Below are positions 1 to 52,000 of a stretch of 64,000 nucleotides of DNA, piece by piece. The stretch is taken from assembly GCA_022414725.1 (NCBI GenBank), contig CM039464.1, positions 54,742,361-54,806,360 of the forward strand, read 5' to 3'. The position numbers and the translations under genes are program-made. A model generated the notes under the pieces. The model was not told the DNA's origin and did no database searches. It was given only the letters and a program-made list of their open reading frames with translations. The stretch is from Microglena sp. YARC (lineage: Eukaryota > Chlorophyta > Chlorophyceae > Chlamydomonadales > Chlamydomonadaceae). Numbering within the stretch: position 1 is the stretch's first letter; every line of letters starts with the position of its first letter.

Positions 1-1580
1 ACACCTGGTGCAACTGGGGGTCAGGTAGTGGGAGACCACCACACCACACCTGTGCAACTGGGCTCAGGTATGGAGACCACCACACCACAACTGGTGCAAC
101 TGGGCTCAGGTAGTGGAACCACCACACCACACCTGTGCAACTGGCAACTCTCAGTAGTGGGAGACCACCACACCACACCTGTGCAACTGGGCTCTGGTAG
201 TGGGAGACCACCACACCACACCTGTTGCACTGGTAGGTAGTGGAGAGACCACCACACCACACTGTGCTCAGGTAAGAGACCAACACACCACACCTGGTGC
301 AACTGGGCTCAGGTAGTGGGAGACCACCACACCACACCTGGTGCAACTGGGCTCAGGTAGTGGGAGACCACCACACCACAACTGGTGCAACTGGGCTCAG
401 GTAGTGGGAGACCACCACACCACACCTGGTGCAACTGGGCTCAGGTAGTGGGAGACCACCACACCACACCTGGTGCAACTGCTCAGGTAGTGGGAGACCA
501 CCACACCAAACCTGGTGCAACTGGGCTAGGTAGTGGGAGACCACCACACCACACCTGGTGCAACTGGGCTCAGGTAGTGGGTGCAACTGGGCTCAGGTAT
601 GGGAGACCACCACACCACACCTGGTGCAACTGGGCTCAGGTTAGTGGGAGACCACCACACCACTGTGCAACTGCCCAGGTAGGTGGGAGACCACCACACC
701 ACACACCTGGTGCAACTGGCAGTGGGAGACCACCACACCACAACTGATGCAACTGGGCTCATGTAGTGGGAGACCACCACACCACAACTGGTGCAACTGG
801 GCTCAGGTAGTGGGAGACCACCACACCACACCTGGTGCAACTGGGCTCTGGTAGTGGGAGACCACCACACCACACCTGGTGCAACTGGGCTCAGGTAGTG
901 GGAGACCACCACACCACACCTGGTGCAACTGGGCTCAGGTAGTGGGAGACCACCACACCACACCTGGTGCAACTGGGCTCAGGTAGTGGGAGACTACCAC
1001 ACCACACCTGGTGCAACTGGGCTCAGGTAGTGGGAGACCACCACACCACAACTGGTGCAACTGGGCTCAGGTAGTAGGAGACCACCACACCACACCTGGT
1101 GCAACTGGGCTCAGGTAGTGGGAGACCACCACACCACCACACACGCTGGTGCAACTGGGCTCAGGTAGTGGGAGACCACCACACCACACCTGGTGCAACT
1201 GGGCTCAGGTAGTGGGAGACCACCACACCACACCTGGTGCAACTGGGCTCAGGTAGTGGGAGACTACCACACCACACCTGGTGCAACTGGGCTCAGGTAG
1301 TGGGAGACCACCACACCACACCTGGTTCAACTGGGCTCAGGTAGTGGGAGACCACCACACCACACCTGGTGCAACTGGGCTCAGGTAGTGGGAGACCACC
1401 ACACCACACCTGGTGCAACTGGGCTCAGGTAGTGGGAGACCACCACACCACACCTGGTGCAACTGGGCTCAGGTAGTGGGAGACCACCACACCACACCTG
1501 GTGCAACTGGGCTCAGGTAGTGGGAGACCACCACACCACACCTGGTTCAACTGGGCTCAGGTAGTGGGAGACCACCATAC
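1..1580 (+). repeat. 44-bp minisatellite derived from exon sequence
   Basis: About 36 head-to-tail copies of a 44-bp unit (core TGCAACTGGGCTCAGGTAG, then a GGGAGACCACCACACC part). The window starts inside the array. Copies are mostly near identical from about 750 to 1570, and shorter or indel-bearing ones are frequent before 750. The unit aligns by eye with the start of the exon at 2004-2108 (about 32 of 38 positions), so this is amplified exon sequence inside the upstream intron and not an independent satellite. There are no unique spacers between units. Long ORFs on both strands here are only the repeat read through. Confidence 0.93.
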
Positions 1581-1953
1581 CACACCAAACAAAATCACAC
1601 CAAACAAAACCAAAACAAACAACAAAATACCAAAACACGCCACCCCCTCTTGCATGTTACGACACTCCCCCTTCTTTGCTTTGCCAGAATGGTCGCAACT
1701 AGGCTTGGATAGAGGGAGACCACCACACCACACCAAGCAAAATCAGTCAATTGCACCAAACAAAACCAAAACAGCACCACACCACACCCAACCACCACAC
1801 TGCACCAAACAAAATCACGCCAAACAAAACCACACATAACCACACCAAACTTAACCACGCCAAACCACACCACTCCACACTACACCAGACCATATTTAAC
1901 CACACCAAACAAAATCACACTAAACCACACCACACCTCTAGGCCCCGCTCCAC
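1581..1953. repeat. CACCAAACAAAATCA-type simple repeat in the intron
   Basis: Degenerate 15-18 bp repeats built of CACCAAACAAAATCAC and CCACACCAAAC blocks fill this stretch on both sides of the exon echo at 1639-1729. No coding signal was seen. Confidence 0.8.
1639..1729 (+). pseudogene. Echo of 3' splice site plus exon start
   Basis: A pyrimidine-rich tract ending in TTTGCTTTGCCAG (to 1687) is followed by a degenerate copy of the first ~42 nt of the exon that truly starts at 2004 (about 34 of 38 aligned positions by eye). The intron part also matches the sequence just before 2004 (CACCCCCTCTTGC...). It is an intermediate between the true exon and the 44-bp minisatellite. No matching donor follows, so it is probably not used as an exon. 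Confidence 0.82.
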
Positions 1954-2003
1954 ACCACCCCCTCTTGCTTGTCACGACCCTCCCCTTCTTCTTGCTTCAT
2001 CAG

Positions 2004-2108
2004 GATGGACGCAATTGGGCTCGGATAGAGGGAGACCACCACACCGGTGCTCTGTTTGACGTGGGAGAGGAGGGAGAATGGGACGAGCTGATGGTGGCTG
2101 CACCACAG
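2004..2108 (+). CDS. Beta-propeller gene, first exon in window
   Basis: 105 nt, 35 codons, acceptor CTTGCTTCATCAG before 2004 and donor CACAG|GTTGGT after 2108. It encodes [20 protein letters not shown] and then GEEGEWDEL...AAPQ, matching the '[11 protein letters not shown](S/T)GALFDVG' segment of the plant family. Both halves of this exon have been copied into the introns: the start at 1-1729 and the end at 2109-3140. Confidence 0.88.
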
Positions 2109-3913
2109 GTTGGTTGGCTTGGTTCGGTTTGGTTAGATTCAGGAGGTGGAGGGTGGTGGTGGTAGGGGTGGTAGAGTGTGTGGTGGGGGGGGGGAGGTGT
2201 TTGACGTGGGAGAGGAGGAGAATGGGACGAGCTGATGGCGGCTGCTCCACTGGTAGGTTGGCTTGGTTCGGTTTGGTTCGGTTTAGGGGATGGGAGGGGG
2301 GGAGGGGCGGAGGTGTTTGATTGTGGGTGAGGAGGGACAGTGGACCATGAGCTGATGGTGGCTGCTCCACTGGTTGGTTGGCTTGGTTCAGTTTAGTCCG
2401 GTTTAGGGGTGTGGAAGGGGGGAGGAGGGGAGGGGGGGGGAGTTGTTTGATGTGGGTGAGGAGGGTCAGTGAAATGAGCTGATGGTAACTGCTCTACTGG
2501 TAGGCTGCTTGGTTCGGTTTGGTCAGGTTTAGGGGGTGGAGGGGGGAGGGGAGGGGGGGGGAGAGTTTGATGGGGGTGAGGAGGGTCAGTGAAATGAGCT
2601 GATGGTGGCTGCTCCACAGGTTGGCTTGGTTCAGTTTAGTCCGGTTTAGGGTGGAAGGGGGAGAGGGGAGGGGGGGAGGTGTTTGATGTGGGTGAGGAGG
2701 GACAGTGGACCATGAGCTGATAGTGACTGCTCCACTGGTAGGTTGGCTTGGTTCGGTTTGGTTTGGTTCGGAATTTAGGGGGTGGGAGAGGGGAGGTGGT
2801 GGGAAGGGTATGTGTGGGGGGGGAGGTGTTTGACGTGGAGAGGGGGTGGATGAGCTAATGATGGCTGCTCCACTGGTAGGTTGGCTTGGTTCGGTTGGTT
2901 AGGTTTAAGGGGTGTGGAGTGGGTGGTGTGGAGGGGGGAGGGGGGGGGGAGGGGCGGAGCTGTTTGAGGGAGGGAGGTTGGGATGAGCTGATGTGGCTGC
3001 ACCACAGGGAAGGTTGGCTGGTTTGTTTTGGTTAGATTCAGGGGGTGGGTGGGAGGGGGGAGGGGGCGGGAGGTGTTTGGTGTGGGTGAGGAGGAACAGT
3101 GGGATGAGCTGATGGTGGCTGCAACACAGGTAGGTTGGCTTGGTTCGCGTTTGGTTCCGTATAGGGGCAGAAGAGGGGAGGGGGTGGGAGGGGAGGAGGG
3201 GCGGAGATGTTTAATGTGGGAAAACAACGGACCCAAGGACATGAGCCACAAACACACACACACACACACATAAGCACACACTCATATACAGACAGTTATA
3301 TTCCCTGCTGCATCAGGTGATAAGCAACAGACCCAAGGACATGCGCCCCTTCTATCACTATCACCCGCACACTCATAAACACACACACATATAAACACAC
3401 ACATAAACACACACATACATAAACACACACATAAACACACACATACACACACATACACGCACATAAACACATACATAAACACACACACATACACAGGCAG
3501 TTATATTTCCTGCTACAACAGGTGATAAGCAACAGACCCAGGGACATGCGCCCCTTCTATCACTATCACCCGCACACTCATAAACACACACACATATAAA
3601 CACACACACATATACAGGCAGTTATATTCCCTGCTACAACAGGTGATAAGCAACAGACCCAAGGACATGCGCCCCTTCTATCACTATCACCCGCACACTC
3701 ATAAACACACACACACATAAACACACACATAAACACACACATAAACACACACATACATAAACACACACATAAACACACACACATACACACACATACACAC
3801 ACATAAACACATACATAAACACACACACATACACAGGCAGTTATATTTCCTGCTACAACAGGTGATAAGCAACAGACCCAAGGACATGGGCCCCTTTATC
3901 ACTATCACACACA

Positions 3914-3967
<54 letters not shown>

Positions 3968-4008
3968 TAAACACACACACACACAAACACACAAACACAT
4001 AAACACAT

Positions 4009-4052
<44 letters not shown>

Positions 4053-4060
4053 GCACACAT

Positions 4061-4094
<34 letters not shown>

Positions 4095-4156
4095 CACACG
4101 CACACATAAACACACACACACACACACACACACACACCCAAAACACACGCACACAT

Positions 4157-4196
<40 letters not shown>

Positions 4197-4290
4197 GCAC
4201 ACATAAACACACACACACACAGACACACACACACACACGCACACATAAACACACACACACACACACACACACATAAACACGCACACATAA

Positions 4291-4322
<32 letters not shown>

Positions 4323-4332
4323 GCACACATAA

Positions 4333-4364
<32 letters not shown>

Positions 4365-4372
4365 GCACACAT

Positions 4373-4418
<46 letters not shown>

Positions 4419-7309
4419 GCACACATAAACACACACATAATCACATACACATACACAGACAGTTGTATTCCCTTCTGCAACAGGTGATTTACAACAGACC
4501 CAAGGACATGCGCCCCATCTATCTCTATCACACACACACTCATAAACACACACGCACATAAACACATGCAAATAAACACACGCACACATAAGCACACACA
4601 TGTACAGAAAGTTACATTCCCTGCTACAACAGGTGATTAAAAACAGACTCAAGGACATGCGCCCCTCCTATCACTATCACACACACACTCATAAACACAC
4701 ACATACCAACACACTTACATACACACACATAAATACACATATACAGACAGTTATATTCCCTGTTTCCACAGGTGATAAACAACGGACCCAAAGACATGCG
4801 ACTCTTCTATCACAGCTGGGATGCTCGTAAGGGGCGCTACATAGTGGGCGTTGCCACCTCAGAGGATGGATTCCAGTGGAAGAAGAAGGGTGCGGTGTTT
4901 GACCCTGTGGAGCAGATCGCGGACGCCGACAAGGCAACTGCATTTGATGCACTCGGAGTGGCATCTCGCCATGTGGTATGTTCACCTCTCACACACGCAC
5001 ACACACACACAATACACACACATGCACACACACACACGATACACACGCATACACACGCAATACTCACACATGCAAACACACACACACGCCCTCGGCATCT
5101 CGCCATGTGGCACATTCACCTCTCACACACGCACACACGCATGCACACACACAATACATACACAAACACACACACGCATACACACACGCCCTCGGCATCA
5201 TGCAACGTGGCACGTTCACCTCTCTCACACACACACACACACACAATACACACACGCATACACACAATACACACACATGCAAACACACACGCATGGACAC
5301 ACACACAATACACACATGCATACACACACACGCCCTCGGCATCATGCAATGTGGCACGTTCACCTCTCACACACGCACACACACAATACACACACACGTC
5401 CTCGGCGTGGCATCACACTATGTGGTACATTCACCTCACACACACCACACACCCAACCACCCTCGGCACGGCAACTCGCCATGTGGTACGTTCACACACA
5501 CACACGCACACACACACGCACACACACACGTAACACACGTACCCTCAGGGTGGCATCACACCATGTAGTATGTTCACACCACACACGCACATAACACACA
5601 CACCCAGCGTGGCATCACGCAATGTGGTGTGTTCACCTCTCTCTCTCACACACACACACAAACAGACACACACTCAGCGTGGCATCCCGCAATGTGATAC
5701 ATTCACATCACACACACACACATAACACACACTCCCTCGGCGCGGCATCACACCATGTGGTATGTTCAAATCACATACACACACGCACACATCACACACC
5801 CAATCACCCTCGGTGCGGCACTTCACCATGTGGTACGTTCACCTCACACACACACACAAACAACACACACACACACTCTCAGCGTGGCATCACGCAATGT
5901 GATACATTCACATCACACACACACACACACATAACTAGGGTTGGGAGGCAAACGTATATTTTATTTTTTTAAGCCGTATAAACGTATAAACGTATACATA
6001 TAAATGCATAAAAACGTATATAAAAATTAGGCACTTCTTCAGAATATTCTTTTACATGGGTTTAAAGGTATTGCCGCGTAGCTAATTTAATTGGCATCAC
6101 ATATCAACTCTTAGAAAAATAATCTGGCAAGTTTAGGTTGTCCAAATCTCAGAAATTAAATCACGACCAGAAAGCGCGTCAACCAAGAAGCGCGGTGCCA
6201 ATCTAAGGGAGCCATTAATTGCCAGTTGGTCTATTATATAACTGTATTGTGAGTGTATAATAATAAAAGTACATAATGGTTTTGCAATATTGTCCACGTT
6301 CACATTACACTACACTTGTACGATCAATCCTTCAAGCCCACGCAGGAGCACAGCTTGTGGAATGGAAGGCTAGGTGGCGCTCTGATATGCGTGCCATCCT
6401 GACTATCTAGATCAACCATTAGGCAAAATGTTTATAAAATGGTGCAAGTGAATGGTGAATTGTATTGCATATTGTGATACAGGAGGTCACAAGCTTTCCA
6501 ATGAGCTATCTAAATCAAAAATATAATGAAAACCAAGAAATTTAAGTGCCGGGACGTGTGCTGTACTTCTCGAAGTACAGACTATACGTTTTGTATACGA
6601 CGTCTATGAGGTCGATTTGAGAAAAACTAGACGGCGTATTTAAACGTATAAACGTATTTTATACGTTTATATGTCGGCCCAACCCTACACATAACACACA
6701 CTCCTTCGGCGCGGCATCACACCATGTGGTATGTGCACATCACACACACGCACACTCACACACACATCACCCACCTAACCAACCTCGGTGCGGCATTTCA
6801 CCATGTGGTACGTTCACCTCTCACACACACACACAAACAAATTCAAACACACCCACCACCCACCCAACCACCCTCGGCGCAGTATCTCGCCATGCGGTGC
6901 ATTCACCTCACACACACATACACACACAAACAAACAACACACACACCCTCGGTGCGGCATCACGTATGTAGTACGTTCACATAACACACACACACATACA
7001 CACACACACACACACACATACACACACACACACACTACACACACACATACACACACACACGCACACTACACACACACATACACACACACACATACACACA
7101 CACATACATACAAACACACACTACACACACACATACACACACACACATACACACACACATACATACACACACACATACATACACACGCATACACACACAC
7201 ATAACACGCACATACACACACATACACACACACACACATACACACACACATACACACACACACCACACACACACACATAACACACACATAACACACACAT
7301 ACACACACA

Positions 7310-7341
<32 letters not shown>

Positions 7342-9975
7342 TACACACACACATACACACACACACATAACACACACATACACACATACACTCACACACA
7401 CACACACACACACACATACACACACACACATACACACACACACAAAACACACACACACACACAAACACACACATGGGATGGCTGTGTCCGGGTTCAGTTC
7501 ATCGGTGTTTTTTCTTTTTAGCCCTTCCTATGCGGTTGGGCAAGTCCCTTTAGCCTATTTGGCCTACCCCTGGGCTGTAACATACACACACACGGGATGG
7601 CTGTGCCCAAGGGTGGGCAGCAGGAATGGAAGCGCTTCCCCTCGACCATCACCCACCCCACATCACCCGTCCACCCACCCACTACACCCACCTTCCCCAT
7701 CTACCCACCCACCCACCCTCCCCCATCACCCATCACCCACCCACCATCTTTTCATCTGCTCCCCCCATCCTCCCCCCACTACCCAGCCCCCACTACACCC
7801 TCCCCCACCACCCATCACCCCCCCATCACACATCCACCCCCCACCCTCATCTACCCATCCACCCACCCCTCCCTCCCCCATCTACCCACCCACCCACCCA
7901 CTACACCCACACTCTCCTATCCCATCACCCACCCCCCATCTACCCATCTGCTCCCCCCATCTACCCCCACCACGCAGCCACCCATCCATACACCACACCC
8001 TCCCCCCACCCCCCACCTCACCACCATCAGGTCCAGGACATCGAAAACCGGCAATACGTGATGTACTACGAGGCAGTGGGTGTGAAAAATGTCAGCAGCT
8101 TAGGAATGGCAGTGTCCAAAGAATGGGCTGAAGAGCTGGAAGCACTGCCCCTCCACCATCACCTTCCCCCATCTACTGACCCTCCTCCATCTACCCATGT
8201 GCTCCCCCCGCCCTCCCCCACTTTACACCACATACCCTCCCCCACCCCACCACCATCAGGTCCAGGACATTGAGACAATCAATTTATTCCCCGTGCCACC
8301 AACACTCACCCACCCACCCACCTCCCCACACACCCCACCCCACCACCATCAGGTCCAGGACATTGAGACAATCAAATTATACCCCTCGCCACCAACACTC
8401 ACCAACCCACCCACCCACACTTACCCACACTGCACCTCCCCACACACACCTCTTCCCCCGACCCCCCATCCGGGTCCCCACCCCCCCACCATCAGGTCCA
8501 GGACATCGAGAACCAGCAATACGTGATGTACTACAAGGCGGTGGGTGTGAACAATGTTCGCAGCTTAAGGATGGCGGTGTCCAAGAATGGGCTGAAGGAC
8601 TGGAAGTGCTGCCCCTCCACCATCACCCACCCCCCATCACCCGTCCACCCATCACCACACCCACTTTCCCCATCTACCCACCCACCCACTGCACCTGCCT
8701 TCCTCATCTATCCCCCCACCCCCCCACCATCAGGTCCAGGACATCGAAAACCGGCAATACGTGATGTACTACGAGGCGGTGGGTGTGAACAATGTTCGCA
8801 GCTTAGGGATGGCCGTGTCCAAGGATGGGTTGAAGAGCTGGAAGCGCTGCCCCTATCCCATTTTCAGTGCGGACGCCGATTCCTGGGATTCCGGCTCAGT
8901 CGGAGCCCCCTGCCCCGTGTCAATGTCTGCGGGCAAGTGGCGTTTGTACTACTCCGGAAAGCAGGGGCAGAGACTGGTGAGTGGATGTGGTGGTGGTAGG
9001 GGGGGGGGGGGGGGGGGGGGGGGGGCAGATGCCAATTCCTGGGATTCTGGCTCAGTCGGAGCCCCCTGCCCCGTGTCGATGTCTGCGGGCAAGTGGCGTT
9101 TGTACTACTCCGGGAAGCAGGGGGCAGAGACTGGTGAATGGGTGTGGTGGTGGTCTGGTGGTAGAGGGGGGGGGGGGGGGGGGGGGGGAAGTGCCGATTC
9201 CTGGTATTCTGGCTCAGTCGGAGCCCCCTGCCCTGTGTCAATGTCTGCGGGTAAGTGGCGTTTGTACTACTCCGGAAAGCAGGGTGGGGGGGAGACTGGT
9301 GAGTGGGTGTGGTGCTGGTGTGCTGGTGTGGGGGGGGGGGGGGAGGGCTACTGGGCAGGGTGGCCACTACTCTGGAAACCAGGGTGGGGGAGAGAGTGGT
9401 GAGTGGGTGGGGTGGTAGGGTGTGGGTGGTGGGGTGGGGGGTGGCTACTGGGCAGGGGTGGTCACGTACTCCGGGGCGGATACTGGCGAGTGGGACATCA
9501 GCAACTATCACCCTATTACCTAACCAAGCAACAAACCACCTTCTCACTCCATGCCTTCCCCCGTCACCCTATTACCTGACTAACCAACCAACCAACCAAC
9601 CAACCAACCAATCACCTTCTCACTCCATGCCATCCCCCATCACCATATGACCTAACCAACCAACCAACCAACCAACCACCTTCTCACTCCATGCCTTCCC
9701 CCATCACCCTATTACCTAACCAACCAACCAACCAACCAACCAATCAACCAACCAAACAACCAAACAACCAACCACCTTCTCACTCCATGCCTTCCCCCAT
9801 CACCCTATGACCTAACCAATCAAATAAGCAACCAACCAACCAACCAACCAACCACTCCATGCCTTCCCCTGTAGGTCCCTGGGAGGGTGTTGGACTTGCT
9901 CTCAGTGTGGATGGCGGCAAGATGTTCGAGGGTGTGCCCTCTGTATATAAGAGAAGGACTGCCAAATCTGCTTAA
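2004..9975 (+). CDS. Glycosidase-like five-bladed beta-propeller protein, 3' part of gene (join of 4 exons)
   Basis: Spliced gene, join(2004-2108, 4772-4975, 8734-8976, 9875-9975), with earlier exons left of the window. The ~216 readable residues show the repeated blade signature of GH32/43/62/68-type (arabinanase/levansucrase/invertase-fold) propellers: [10 protein letters not shown]...[12 protein letters not shown], then YVMYYEAVG...[13 protein letters not shown], then [10 protein letters not shown]...[12 protein letters not shown] recognise it as a conserved plant/green-algal family usually named only by its fold; its substrate is not known to me, and I cannot place catalytic acids in this part. 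Exon 1 to 2 and 2 to 3 junctions are phase 0. The last junction needs phase 1, which the third exon as written misses by one G (see that exon). Every intron is filled with junction echoes. Confidence 0.85.
2109..3145 (+). repeat. Donor-side echo array of exon 2004-2108
   Basis: Eight further copies of the exon end plus 5' splice site follow the true donor, spaced about 115-145 bp (GAGCTGATGGTGGCTGC core near 2229, 2348, 2475, 2596, 2714, 2849, 2983 and 3104). A copy carries about 50 nt of exon (GTTTGACGTGGGAGAGGAGG to CCACTG), usually a GTAGGTTGG or GTTGG donor, and a GGTTTAGGGGGTGG / GGGGAGGGG intron part. The coding frame is broken in most copies. The G-rich intron part has expanded into GGGGGAGGGG tracts. 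Confidence 0.9.
3146..4741 (+). repeat. Acceptor-side echo array of exon 4772-4975 with CA-rich expansions
   Basis: Six copies of the branch/acceptor region plus the first ~48 nt of the next exon precede the true one: exon-like starts at 3317, 3522, 3643, 3862, 4484 and 4633, each after a TTATATTCCCTGCTACAACAG-like tract. A shorter fragment lies near 3222. The copies read GTGATAAGCAACAGACCCAA and on to CTATCACTATCAC, then pass into ACTCATAAAC(AC)n. The (AC)n and ACACATAAAC tracts between them are strongly expanded at about 3905-4440. Long Cys/Val-rich minus-strand ORFs here are read-through of the CA repeat. Confidence 0.9.
4772..4975 (+). CDS. Beta-propeller gene, second exon in window
   Basis: 204 nt, 68 codons, acceptor CCCTGTTTCCACAG and donor CATGTG|GTATGT. 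It encodes a complete propeller blade ([30 protein letters not shown]) and the linker ending [10 protein letters not shown]. It is the only one of seven neighbouring copies that stays open past the first 16 codons, which is why I take it as the real exon. Confidence 0.9.
4976..5935 (+). repeat. Donor-side echo array of exon 4772-4975, left part
   Basis: About eleven copies of the last ~26 nt of the exon plus the donor (CCTCGGCGTGGCATCACACC then ATGTGGTACGTTCACCTC) alternate with (CA)n. They lie near 5089, 5188, 5331, 5398, 5460, 5540, 5602, 5672, 5733, 5808 and 5877. Some keep a GT donor (GTATGT, GTACGT); others have GC or a lost dinucleotide. The array continues after the MITE at 6696. Confidence 0.9.
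5936..6687. mobile_element. hAT-type non-autonomous element (MITE), 752 bp
   Basis: The terminal inverted repeat starts TAGGGTTGGG at the left and ends CCCAACCCTA at the right, a perfect 10-bp match. An 8-bp target duplication CACATAAC flanks it (5928-5935 and 6688-6695), the size made by hAT transposases. Both subterminal regions are crowded with AAACGTATA / TATACGTTT motifs, as expected for transposase binding sites. Inside there is no transposase ORF. It inserted into the echo array, so that array is older than the insertion. Confidence 0.9.
6696..6985 (+). repeat. Donor-side echo array of exon 4772-4975, right part
   Basis: Four more exon-end/donor copies near 6702, 6784, 6870 and 6948 in the same arrangement as before the MITE, ending where a pure CA tract takes over. 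Confidence 0.88.
6986..7474. repeat. (CA)n / (CACATA)n microsatellite
   Basis: Almost 500 bp of ACACAC with ATACAC and ACATAACAC interruptions. No junction echo is visible inside. The long ORFs on either strand are repeat read-through. Confidence 0.95.
7475..7587 (-). repeat. Inverted copy of a ~100-bp dispersed repeat
   Basis: Read on the minus strand, 7488-7583 gives TGTTACAGCCCAGGGGTAGG, then AGGCTAAAGGGACTTGCCCAACC, then GGGCTAAA and GATGAACTGA. It matches a segment found in every 1.9-kb satellite monomer (for example 10606-10695) and, partly, the TIR element at 39100-39190. It splits an exon echo: GGGATGGCTGTG occurs at its left edge and again at 7597. Confidence 0.8.
7588..8733 (+). 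repeat. Acceptor-side echo array of exon 8734-8976
   Basis: CACCCACC-type pyrimidine-rich sequence with partial copies of the following exon. Two copies are long (8031-8152 and 8496-8617, each ~120 nt and about half of the exon) and two are short (starting 8260 and 8353). All come after the same CACCACCATCAG acceptor. An older fragment (GGGATGGCTGTGCCCAAGG and GGAAGCGCTTCCCC) lies at 7597-7645. Copies carry frame-breaking indels. Confidence 0.9.
8734..8976 (+). CDS. Beta-propeller gene, third exon in window (1-nt frame problem at its end)
   Basis: 243 nt after acceptor CACCATCAG, donor AGACTG|GTGAGT. It encodes the blade YVMYYEAVG...[18 protein letters not shown] and the segment [20 protein letters not shown] before RLYYSGKQG. 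As written it ends in phase 0, but the last exon needs phase 1. The G run at 8964-8967 has four G, while the echo at 9120-9124 has five and would give the expected ...GAET + GPWEG junction. A missing G in a homopolymer (sequencing error or real mutation) explains this. Confidence 0.88.
8977..9500 (+). repeat. Donor-side echo array of exon 8734-8976 with long poly-G tracts
   Basis: Two large copies of the second half of the exon with donor (about 9026-9133 and 9189-9298) and two worn ones (about 9340-9398 and 9440-9495). They are separated by G tracts of 27 (8999-9025) and 23 (9166-9188) bases. The first two copies keep the frame to the donor. Copy two also has a new internal GTAAGT at about 9251. 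Confidence 0.9.
9501..9874 (+). repeat. (CCAA)n repeat with echoes of the last intron's 3' end
   Basis: Blocks of CCAACCAACCAACC alternate with CTTCTCACTCCATGCCTTCC near 9539, 9617, 9681 and 9776. The same phrase forms the true acceptor tract CACTCCATGCCTTCCCCTGTAG ending at 9874, so only the intron side of this junction was multiplied. Confidence 0.85.
9875..9975 (+). CDS. Beta-propeller gene, terminal exon
   Basis: Begins after CCCTGTAG. In phase 1 it reads (G)[19 protein letters not shown] and on to YKRRTAKSA, with TAA at 9973-9975. PWEG-GLALS-DG is the C-terminal blade of the plant family, which fixes the frame although the phase-0 frame is also open for a while. Confidence 0.87.
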
Positions 9976-46000: not shown

Positions 46001-49000
46001 CAACTAGAAAAACTGTTAGACTTCAACAATGTTAATAAGGACGTTTCGTCGTTGCCTAGGCTACGTAGCTTCAGTGAAATGTGTGATGATGCACAGAAGT
46101 TCAGAGATAGTTGAAGTAGTAAGAGCACCAAAGTCGTGTGCTCTGTGTGTAGTATGTACGTCTTGAAAGCAACGCTATGTGCATCAAGCGATGCAGATGG
46201 TTTTATTGCTGTTAGTGGCATACCTAATTTGGACTTGTTGCGTGCTGATGTAGAGCCAACTGATGAATTACCCCGTCATGCAAAGACAACCTTTAAGTTT
46301 AACGAGCACTCATATTGTATGCAACCTGCAGCATGCATTGGTGATAAAGCAAGAGTGTGTCACACCTGCTACACAAAATTGTGTGCAGAAACAGTACCCA
46401 AGAATTCATTAGCTAGGTTTGATATAGGGGGATTACCAATCTGCGAGGAAACAAATGAAACATTCCCCCAATTAACTATGATTGAGGAGAAACTTCTGTC
46501 CCAATACAGATCATCTAGGATTGTTATGATAATGAAACCTCCAGCAGTGTTTAGACCATTAGATACATACCAAATAGGGCATCGTGGTCATGTGATAGCG
46601 TTTCCAAACGTCCCAGTAAAAGAGACAAGGAGAATGTTGTTACCAGCATTAGATTCTTTACCAGAACATATTAAAGTCGTCTTCTTGACCAAGGCATCAC
46701 CAGAAGAAATGAATAACATGTGCAAGAATGCACCCGCTCTTCATGTCCGAGGCAAAGTCGTCTTGCAGTGGGCTGATCATTTAATGAAGGTAAGGCATAT
46801 CATGTTTGAAGGTAATGCTATAAATATAATGTGACATAAATATGTGCTACATAAAATAATGTGCTATAAATATGTGCTATCAAATATGTGTTATACAAAA
46901 TACTCATATGAGTGACAGGATGTAAAGTTATAACTATTGACTTAGTATACACATATTGTATGCTATATGTTGAGGACATCATGCACATGTACATGTAAAT
47001 AAATTGCCACACTATTGTATCACTCATGGCATATCATTTAATAAAATATGTGCTATAAAACATAATGTGCTATACATATAATGTGACATTCATGCTCGTT
47101 GGCCATCCTTGCTTGTTTGCCATGCATGCTTGGTTGTGTCCATGTCCGTTTGTCGTCTATGCTTATTTGTGTCAACCTATTATATTTCAAAATGTCAACC
47201 TTTTCCATTTCAATATGTTATGTTGTATCAATATTTACATGAATAATGTACACATTGCTTTGCAGGTGTATCCAGATGAATTTGACAGTGCGGTTGACAA
47301 TCGAGATGAGTATTCCTCCTTGGATGGGACTCCCGCATCATTGGTTAATACTACAACATGCGCCCAGACTGAAGAAGAAGCTAGGGGATTATGTACTGCA
47401 TTTACTGGAGATAGACAAGGTTATGCAAACACCAGGGAATTTCTAGATGTTGATGGTAAGTGCAATATATTTACCGTATGCGCAACATGTAATGGTAAAT
47501 GATTTGGCAAACGACCATTTGTCAATGTCGTTTCAGCACGTAAGTGAGCCGGTCCTGGGTCACCAGCGTTTGCCAAGTTTGTCCAACACCGTCGATTCAA
47601 ACAAACTCAGTTCGACTGGTCCGGATCGCCTTGATCGTTCCTTGTATGCACTGATTTCGAGATACAATGAGCTGGTCGCGCCTAATGAAGCTGGTTGCGC
47701 CTGTCAAAGCTGCTCGCGCCTATCGCACTGACTGGTTTGACCGCCAGCGGTTTGAACGCTAGCCGGATGCCACTTTCTATATCCCAGACCCGAAGGGTGA
47801 TTCGCCCACCACCGTTCTGTTGCAAGGATCTGCCTCGAGCCTGGACTAGTACATATGGAGGACTTGGGCAACCCATACGTATCACAAAAAAGATTTGATG
47901 CACCGACCATTCCTCCCCTCCCCCACCCCCACCCCCAAAAAACACCGACAACATTACTAACAAGGTTATCAGATCTCCTCAGTCGTTCGCCAAGCAAAGC
48001 CCTGATTTGGATCATTTCTTTTTCAGACTATGACCAAGAGGAACTGTTTTTAAAGCTTTCCCCAGCAACCTACTTTTAAAAATGGAAGAAGGAAATGTAA
48101 CAAGCAAATTGGAGATTTGCCAAATGTTTCCAAGTCAAACCTTTCCAAGTCAAACAAAGTCTCAGACCCAAACCCTTTGCCAAATTAGTTTTGTCACACA
48201 TTTGTGATTTATGAAATAAGGTTTAAAACCACATTTGCCAATGTTTATTTCTGCCATTACATGTTGCGCATACGGTACTTCTAACTAGCCTATTTAACCT
48301 GAGGTTAAATACTCATACGTATTGCCTGTTCATTTTCTTACACATACCAATGTTAACAATACGGTTAACTCATTCAATTTCACTATGCCACTTATCATGA
48401 CATTATCTAACACTCTTTCTCTATTAACTTCCTCTCTACCCTAGGAATGTTGCATCCAAATGAGCATGATGGAGAACCCAGAGCCCCACCTTCATCAGTA
48501 CCTAACGGCACGCCTAGTTCTCCATTGGATACCACTAATGTATCTCAAGATTCTCCATTAGCCTCCGATTCTCCCCCACAAGATCCTTCTCAACATTCTA
48601 TGGAACATGTCGTGCAACCTACCCCTAGTAAGTTATGCTTAAGTGAAGTACCATCTCATCGTCAAACCAAAAGTAATAAGTGCCAAACCAAAATTGCAGT
48701 CTAATATAGTGCTAAGGTCTAATACAATCATACACATATCTCAATATTATGTGTCCATATGTTGATATGTGCATGAATGTAGTATATTGACACACATCAC
48801 ACACCATAGTATGAAGTAATTAGTGCAACAAAAGCATGGCCATCTTCAACGCCAACACACACATTCCTCCACACTTCATCTCTCATCTTCCATTAAGCTT
48901 GACTTGTGTGATTCATCACCTCCTGAATGATGCAACACAAGCATGGCCATCTTCCTCGCCTATAGGCTACACATACGAACCCACACACGTACTGCCTCCC

Positions 49001-52000
49001 CTTCCATTAAGCAAGACCTGTGTGATTCATTACCTCCCATGTGACAAGAACGGCCATCTTCAATGCCAACACACAGGCACCCACAAACGTACTATTTCTC
49101 TTTCCATTAAGCCGGACATGTGTGACCCCTCCTACCCCCACATCCCCCCCCCCCACACACACACACAAGTGGTGCAACGCAAGCATGTCCAACTTCAACA
49201 CCAACCTGGTACCCACACACTGTTGTCTCCCTTCCATTACGAACGTCTTGTGCGATACAGCCCCCCCCCTACTCCCACCCCCCCGCCCCCTGTCACCACC
49301 CACCCATATGGTGCACCACAAGCATGACTATCTTCACCGCCAACCCACATGCACCAGCTCACATATTGTCCCCAATACCAGCTGAACTTATGTGATATAC
49401 TAGTACCCGCCTATGTGTTGTAACACAATAATGGACATCTTCACAACAACACATATCTCCCCCCGAAATACATAAAAGTCTACTATGTGTTGTCATTTCG
49501 AGACAAACATGAGTTTTGTTATTACACCTGAGTACAAGTCATTTCTTGGTGTATCTAAAGCAAGGCCAATTCTTGCTTCTTGCAGGTTGTACTATGCATG
49601 GATTGGATGAAGTGGAGTTACAGTTTCACACGAACATCATTCCAGATGTGTTCAATTCTGCCGATAAAATGAAAGCAGGATTCTCATCTGAGGACACACT
49701 AGCACCTTATGTCACGCGAGGGGAAATCCAAAATGATTATGACCCTATGTGGATGATCAGAACACATTGTTCATCATTTCCTCATGGGACAGGGCAATGT
49801 CCTAAAGGAATGAGTGCAAAGGAAGACTATAAAGCTCTATTACAGAGATATCCTAGAACACAATTTGCACAGAATCCAGCACTCATCATAGATGCCTTTA
49901 ATGTAGTGCAACGACATGAAGTCAACTTACAATCACACGTCCAATTGGGTTTCGGATCAAATTTTAAGACAAGCACCTTGTCTTTAAAGGAGCCAGAACT
50001 TCATGCTGTGCTAGATTGTTCTGGCTCATATGATGCATATATTAAATCTCAAAATAGTTACAAAGCTCTAAATGATGCACAGCGCACTGTGTTCAAAGGT
50101 CTATCATGCATAGGTGGTCGAGTCATCGGATCACCACAATCATTCAGATCCTTACGTAGTAAGGTTCTTGCAACACATGTTGTATTTGGTCCATATACAA
50201 CAATGTTCAATCTGTGTCCAGGTGAACAATTCTCGGAGTGGACATTTGCATTAGCAGGCAAAAAGTACAAGTTTGATACATATGGGAAACCAGAGGGTCG
50301 ACCAGAAACCTTAGAGTGTTTGAAAACAGTTGCTCAAAACCCAGATGCATGTGCCCATTTCATCCAAGCCTACCTTGAAGCATTCTGCGATATCTTTTTA
50401 GGATGGCCGATGGGTAGTGCTAAACAAGTGAACCCAGATTGTATGTTTGGGGTTCTATTAGCTGCATACTTGAAATATGAGGCAAGTGGACGTGGAGGCA
50501 AACATGCCCATGGGCAAGCAATTCAAGCTTACCTTCATTTTAAAAATTTAGAGAATATAATGAAAAACGGACAGATGGCAAGTCATTTGTTCACTTTCAT
50601 GGAAAGTGTAGCATGCCCCTACTTCCCTAGCCCTGAAAAGCCTTTGGGATCACAAATCATTATTGATTTGCATCCTACTGAAGCTCCTACACTGGAAGCT
50701 TGTCCTCTCCAAGCTACTTCACGTGAAGTTCGGTCATTGGAAGCTAGTACTACTGAAGCTAGTTCACCTGATGCATCATCATTGGAATCTAGTACTCTGG
50801 AAGCTGGTTCATCTGAAGATCTTACATTGGAAGCTAGTACCATGGACGTGATGATACCAAATCCATCATGTAAGTTATTGTTGAGTAATAAAATTATTCA
50901 ACTGTTCACCATTTATTGCCATCTACATCTACCAACTGCATACCACTTAGCCACCTACTGCATTTACTGGCTCCACCTACTGTCACAAACTGCTACCTTA
51001 GCCACATACTTGAAAATGCATACAAATCAGCAATTATTAGCATTATACATTCAGTTATAAACTAATCTAACTATGCATATCCATCCATGCCTACATTCAT
51101 ATGTTCGGCTCTCTCTGGCTCGTGCTCTCCCCCACTCACACACAACCTCCCTCCCCCTCCTTCGCCCCCTACACACACACACAAACACACTTCCCCTGCA
51201 CACACCCACTGCCCATTCCTTTCCCAATTATAACTTGTCTAAATGGTAACTAACCACCACTTCCCCCCCCACCCCCCACCCCTTTTTTTCTCCCAATCCA
51301 TTGGGTTTGCAGATACATTTGGGACAACGCCTCATGCAGCTTGGGACAAAGTGCTTGAAGGGCAATCTAATGATAAAGTGGTAATGGCTATGAGAATCCC
51401 ATTGGATCCTACTAAAACAGTGCTTCTGTATAACTATGTGGAATCAGCTGCTCGGTCATGCCAAATGCACAAACACACACCAACGTGCAAAAAAGGTGGA
51501 AGAACTGGAGATCATAGTGATTGTAGGATGGGATATGATAGACCACTAGTACATACCACTCATTGTTTGAATGCAACAGCTAACAATGTCCTACTCAGGC
51601 GAACACATGGCAACCTTGTTGCTTACATGCCAGTATTGATGTTAGCTATGCCGGGCAACCACTTTGTGTCTATGACACATGAGCATGGTCGTGGTCTTAG
51701 AGACTGGATGTTGTGGAAAGACAAATTCGATAAAGGTGCAACTATTTCAGAACCTCCAAGTATGTTAGATGCTGAGACGCACTCAATTATGCAGTCTGAA
51801 TATGCTTCTAAATATTGTGCAAAGATTGACAATACGGACATTAATACAAATGCATTCATATTGTTGGTCGAGCATGAAGCTGAGACTCGCACTCCTGACC
51901 AGCAGGCCAAGTCTCTTTTGCAAAAGTTATTACACAAGATGAATGGCTCTCAAACATATCCATTAGTTCTTACAACATCTTTCTTGCTAGGTCATGATGA

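Follow-up and report, generated by a model that had tools for sequence, protein, structure and literature searches.

In the genes sampled from this alga, copies of exon edges, in most arrays including the splice site, lie in direct orientation and only in the adjacent intron, and they are free of coding constraint. These echoes are widespread, but they do not occur in every intron: across three gene families, 66 of 105 edges have echoes and 39 have no detectable echo. The introns concerned probably grew by tandem duplications that straddled a splice junction and were neutral, with the resulting arrays growing in register. The window, the whole 64,000-nt stretch analysed (G000:C3:54742361-54806360, within a 568-Mb assembly), covers the end of intron 5 and introns 6–8 of a host gene that starts 13.6 kb upstream of it. 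Once 20 kb of upstream sequence is added, the gene extends from −13577 to 9976 (window coordinates), with 8 introns separating its 9 exons. Its splice sites are predictions from the reading frame and from protein homology to homologues; so placed, the introns measure 0.9–3.8 kb each and all 8 are GT...AG. Among named homologues, the closest to the encoded protein come from chlorophytes (59% to Chlamydomonas sp. UWO241); one source labels a homologue as a GH43/DUF377-family glycosyl hydrolase, a Pfam search of the host protein returned no domain, and the gene is here called GH43/DUF377-like (the GH gene). Several segments of a public gene model, P0002, match its exons at 98–100%, and on this similarity the source of P0002 is probably the same species.

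The splice site is included in all 25 donor-type copies of the window and in 11 of its 41 acceptor-type copies (Table 1). The resulting 36 copies with a splice site compare well with the ~40 junction copies claimed in an earlier, sequence-only reading, and every copy in the window is intron-side, as that reading also stated, and in direct orientation. Its further description of all four introns as carrying, next to the exons, copies of the exon edge together with the splice site is accurate for most edges, with two departures. On the acceptor side of intron 5 there are 30 copies, and the splice site is present in the last one only (1668–1729), the other 29 consisting of exon letters alone; at the 3′ end of intron 8, the acceptor at 9875 (exon 9) has no exon echo in the intron. 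Intron 6 has a seventh acceptor-side match, exon-only, at 3222–3243. Head-to-tail units, a regular period and common unit ends were all found, from Tandem Repeats Finder (TRF) output and shared exonic breakpoints. The transposable element inside the intron 7 donor array, which we take to be hAT-like, has an 8-bp target duplication (CACATAAC) at 5928–5935 and 6688–6695 and the ends TAGGGTTGGG/CCCAACCCTA; since it sits within the array, the array predates the insertion.

Table 1 Predicted exons, echo arrays and associated features of the host gene inside the window (window coordinates).
Feature	Position	Strand	Basis
44-nt tandem array, ~36 units of exon 6 letters (2011-2045) + 9 nt, intron 5	1..1586	+	TRF; 29 matches, all without splice site
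Single junction copy (intron 5/exon 6), acceptor type, 84% identical, AG retained	1668..1729	+	
Exon 6	2004..2108	+	tblastn of homologues P0003 and P0016; reading frame
Intron 6 donor array: 8 copies, last 40–56 nt of exon 6 + donor site, period ~120	2198..3155	+	
Intron 6 acceptor array: 6 copies, acceptor site + first 40–42 nt of exon 7, CA repeats between	3292..4674	+	
Exon 7	4772..4975	+	tblastn; reading frame
Intron 7 donor array: 14–15 copies, last 16–26 nt of exon 7 + donor site, amid CA repeats	5094..6995	+	
Presumed hAT-like non-autonomous element, inverted ends, inside intron 7 donor array	5936..6687	.	By-eye reading
Intron 7 acceptor array: 5 copies, 4 across the AG, with exon parts of up to 120 nt or more	7594..8606	+	
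Exon 8	8734..8976	+	tblastn; frame break near 3′ end in present assembly; P0002 skips that part
Intron 8 donor array: 3 copies, last 29–108 nt of exon 8 + donor, poly-G between	9025..9416	+	
Intron-only tandem array (CCAA repeats + polypyrimidine block), 3′ end of intron 8, no exon letters	9522..9851	+	TRF
Exon 9 including stop codon	9875..9976	+	tblastn; reading frame

Across the whole host gene, each of the 16 edges that face an intron was represented by up to 60 letters of pure exon sequence and compared with all 8 introns on both strands. This matrix gave 73 matches, all in direct orientation, in 12 of the 16 cells pairing an edge with its own adjacent intron, and no match on either strand in the 112 other edge/intron cells, so chance is excluded. 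Junction-spanning queries found copies in the adjacent intron for 14 of the 16 edges (7 donor, 7 acceptor), 108 copies in total after matches with fewer than 8 exon letters had been dropped, as they were from the CCT junction counts below. There are 55 donor-type copies, 51 of them spanning the splice site with GT kept in 36/51, and 53 acceptor-type copies, 22 of them spanning the splice site with AG kept in 17/22. The copies share 67–97% identity with the exon and carry changes and indels of their own. Array spans make up 49–94% of each intron (16,930 of 22,204 bases summed) when simple repeats and the nested transposon are included, recognisable copies alone accounting for 7–39% of the bases per intron. 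Echoes were absent from the 2.4 kb preceding exon 1, the 0.9 kb following exon 9 and the exons themselves, and a search reaching 3 kb from the edges of four transposon ORFs found none either.

The sequence-only reading had allowed that the pattern might be a local oddity of one gene; echoes recur, however, in kinesin loci on several chromosomes, sampled as the best 30 of 128 matches, and in three CCT chaperonin genes picked for their complete-looking exon sets. Among these best 30 of 128 kinesin matches, 23 of 30 exon cores have echoes, and all 124 exon-core matches are direct and nearer to the adjacent edge, 117 of them beginning within 15 nt of it. Once splice sites were called and minus-strand loci reoriented in the same best 30 of 128, 37 of 57 edges in 29 loci (19 acceptor, 18 donor) carried 138 copies, a count that leaves out L032, a near-duplicate of L018, and the acceptor of L029, where no site was called. 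All 48 CCT exon-core matches obey the same edge rule (direct, adjacent edge), with 4 matches in the other two CCT regions. CCT junction queries yielded 64 copies at 15 of 32 edges (7 donor, 8 acceptor), and none of 118 pairings with other introns of the same gene matched. Eleven of the 16 CCT introns show echoes on at least one side and 5 show none on either side at the sensitivity used, so the pattern, though widespread, does not reach every intron. A simple scoring scheme of our own placed the splice sites of the kinesin and CCT loci, and some of these may be wrong. In the exon-core, similarity-gradient and breakpoint analyses the side labels mean left and right for minus-strand loci, which leaves the edge rule, gradient and breakpoint counts unaffected. 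The cross-locus kinesin control was dirty (73 direct and 77 inverted matches at E 1e-3), the loci being paralogous and some overlapping; the clean controls are the host gene matrix and the CCT intron pairs. Two observations were made alongside these counts. One kinesin acceptor array (L042, 6402-8549 in reverse-complement coordinates) has a ~366-bp higher-order repeat with three kinds of partial exon copies. At G000:C6:13962293-13963762, one open frame of 544 aa without interruption encodes a GroEL/TCP1-family chaperonin, in contrast to the CCT genes with their many introns; it is possibly an organelle-targeted gene or a contaminant.

With the exon under selection and the copy free, mismatches between them at codon positions 1, 2 and 3 are expected at ~1:1:2, because positions 1 and 2 differ through the copy only and position 3 through both copy and exon. 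Observed mismatches to the exon were about equal at positions 1 and 2 and 1.6–2 times as high at position 3, with values of 0.115/0.085/0.173 in the GH gene (46 copies, none from the 44-nt array, from exon 9 or from the last part of exon 8), 0.085/0.077/0.162 in kinesin (138 copies; best 30 of 128 matches) and 0.125/0.105/0.180 in CCT; these figures describe a pattern rather than a p-value test, copies within an array not being independent. Splice dinucleotides behave like the letters around them. In kinesin the donor dinucleotide was retained at 0.892, against 0.878 on the exon side and 0.846 on the intron side, and the acceptor dinucleotide at 0.858, against 0.875 and 0.870 in its flanks, while the GH donor copies keep G in 46/51 and T in 39/51, within the range of the surrounding letters. 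The decoy splice sites thus appear to be neither preserved nor selected against. Donor and acceptor edges are affected about equally (7 and 7 in the GH gene, 18 and 19 in kinesin, 7 and 8 in CCT), as DNA-level duplication predicts, and this balance would argue against RNA-mediated or polarity-bound mechanisms. Codon-position mismatches, dinucleotide retention and the balance of edges all support the neutral duplication model put forward in the sequence-only reading. Donor-type copies lie 5′ of acceptor-type copies in all 10 introns with both (6/6 GH, 4/4 CCT), so that no pair of copies forms a pseudo-exon; among 264 acceptor-copy/donor-copy pairs in the GH gene, none has the acceptor copy before the donor copy.

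Across 34 arrays, 169 of 221 copies have the exonic breakpoint of their array in common to within 3 nt. Each edge therefore seems to have had a single founding duplication that later expanded in register. The stepwise growth proposed earlier receives some support, though modest. In 12 of 34 arrays the copy that best matches the exon is also the one closest to it, where 7.2 such arrays would be expected, and similarity declines with distance at a mean rank correlation of −0.24; permutation gives p 0.0055 for this gradient, but a sign test gives p 0.08. Neighbouring copies are slightly more alike than distant ones in 17 of 24 arrays (identity 0.896 for neighbours, 0.879 for others) and exceed the copy-to-exon identity, 0.882 overall, in 13 of 24. 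Copy-to-copy identity is thus not clearly above copy-to-exon identity, so a simple ladder does not describe the history, and copies may exchange sequence with the exon. There is a weak excess of microhomology at the breakpoints: at k=4 it is present in 10 of 49 arrays, where 3.7 would be expected. Simple repeats are often seen by eye right beside the breakpoints.

Under the proposed mechanism, a founding duplication would have one breakpoint in the exon, ~15–130 nt from its edge, and the other in the intron, often in simple sequence. The outermost junction would still complete the exon, leaving the mRNA unchanged and the mutation nearly neutral, and with two units present more could be added in register by unequal exchange or slippage. 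The upstream row of acceptors would have no donor at exon distance and the downstream row of donors no acceptor; exon definition would pair just the two sites flanking the real exon, and the decoys would be ignored and tolerated because they are left without a partner. Ancestral introns were probably short, in which case most duplications of such size would include a junction, and duplications inside exons would be removed by selection.

Whether junctions are hot spots is the sole difference between this mechanism and a largely compatible alternative, in which tandem duplication is very frequent everywhere, exon letters make old copies recognisable, exons are purged and junctions have no special role. 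We place this alternative just short of an even chance. Tandem repeats of period 20–500 occupy 31–89% of the GH introns and 2–39% of four random 10-kb windows (three of the four reach 26–39% at period 20 or more), and they occupy 32% of the far-upstream 5 kb; because these other regions are repeat-rich too, the process may not be junction-specific. The intron-only array of intron 8 and the near-equal involvement of donor and acceptor edges fit the same reading, against which stands the low share of such repeats in the rest of the window (4–7%). A generally high duplication rate with a selection filter may therefore suffice without a junction hot spot. It is unlikely that the copies are functional, with inner donors, acceptors or partial exons used in alternative or stepwise (recursive) splicing. 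Many decoys do keep their dinucleotides, in the proportions given above for the GH gene and in 38/47 (GT) and 29/42 (AG) of kinesin sites scoring 2.5 or more, and the consensus score of some GH decoy donors equals or exceeds that of the real donor, although the mean is slightly higher for real donors (6.4 of 9) than for decoys (5.8). Retention is nevertheless no better than at neighbouring letters, codons decay freely, indels occur in the exon part of 17/46 GH copies and anywhere, intron part included, in 64/138 kinesin copies, and the GH gene lacks any acceptor copy ahead of a donor copy. Multiplication of junctions by long-read misassembly is very improbable: homopolymer trouble is conceivable, given the frame break in exon 8 and the long poly-G runs, but the divergence of the copies from the exon with private changes and indels, the transposon with target duplication nested in one array, and the presence of echoes in three gene families on several chromosomes all speak against an artefact.

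Several known processes share features with the junction echoes. Introner elements also reshape introns genome-wide, through one family sequence common to introns of different genes, whereas each intron tested here carries letters of its own exons only; they were rejected on the absence of matches in other introns of the same gene (0/112 GH, 0/118 CCT), a within-gene comparison only. Duplication of whole, mutually exclusive exons was likewise rejected, as none of the 124 kinesin matches (best 30 of 128) comes as close as 15 nt to the opposite end of the exon core. Intronic minisatellites and VNTRs resemble the arrays in unit size, in-register growth and common unit breakpoints; to our knowledge, ordinary minisatellites are not seeded systematically at both exon edges. 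Intron gain by tandem duplication, in which an exonic AGGT gives rise to a new intron, has been described (PMC3443670, PMC2891723) and likewise involves exon-derived DNA neutralised by splicing. It makes a new intron, whereas here introns already present appear enlarged, with units that straddle a single existing junction and echoes in the reverse order. We give scarcely any credence to such Rogers-type gain as the source of the echoes, although exon-derived tandem repeats in introns have precedents in fission yeast and potato. Under that model an intron would begin with letters of the downstream exon and end with letters of the upstream one, the reverse of what all six GH introns with both types show, and the order in the four CCT introns led to the same rejection. 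The closest event among the cases considered is in the potato RdRp gene, where a single tandem duplication across an acceptor junction made a new intron (PMC4974935); that was one event, while here rows reach 30 copies, donors are involved too, many genes are affected and no new intron is inferred. In fission yeast, the portion of the report consulted describes introns made of exonic tandem repeats, two isolated gains via proto-splice sites in the unit (PMC3629103); introns from exon-derived tandem units are common to both cases, and that portion describes no rows of donors or acceptors.

Extrapolating from the 105 edges, we lean, by a narrow balance, towards junction-spanning tandem duplication as the dominant genome-wide route of intron enlargement in this lineage, responsible for much of the intronic bulk of the 568-Mb genome and for tens of thousands of intact decoys ignored via exon definition. 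For comparison, the six annotated species in a comparative Chlamydomonas genomics study, as given in the part of the paper available, have median intron lengths of 198–343 bp, and its intron sections, to the same extent, mention no such echoes (PMC8226300). A literature search by titles and the beginnings of abstracts, of partial coverage, returned no report of junction echoes as a genome-wide mode of intron growth. Intron length is usually explained by transposons; junction duplication would be a different, testable route, made harmless by the splice site itself. Each such intron would be a record of its own growth, and each row of decoys a natural experiment on how the spliceosome chooses among near-identical sites. 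Echo arrays are also a likely annotation hazard, an example being P0002, which omits exon 6 and further stretches that homologues conserve.

Elsewhere in the window, the minus strand carries eleven U1 snRNA genes at 11285-37294, tandemly repeated in units of ~1.9 kb; a Copia-type element (~15.8–21.8 kb) breaks the array. In the single U1 copy examined, the 5′ end (AUACUUACCUG) is intact; that U1 dosage might be connected with the decoy donors is no more than an idea. Further along, a DUF6570 domain lies at 46115-46834 and a Helitron-like helicase domain at 49513-51060.
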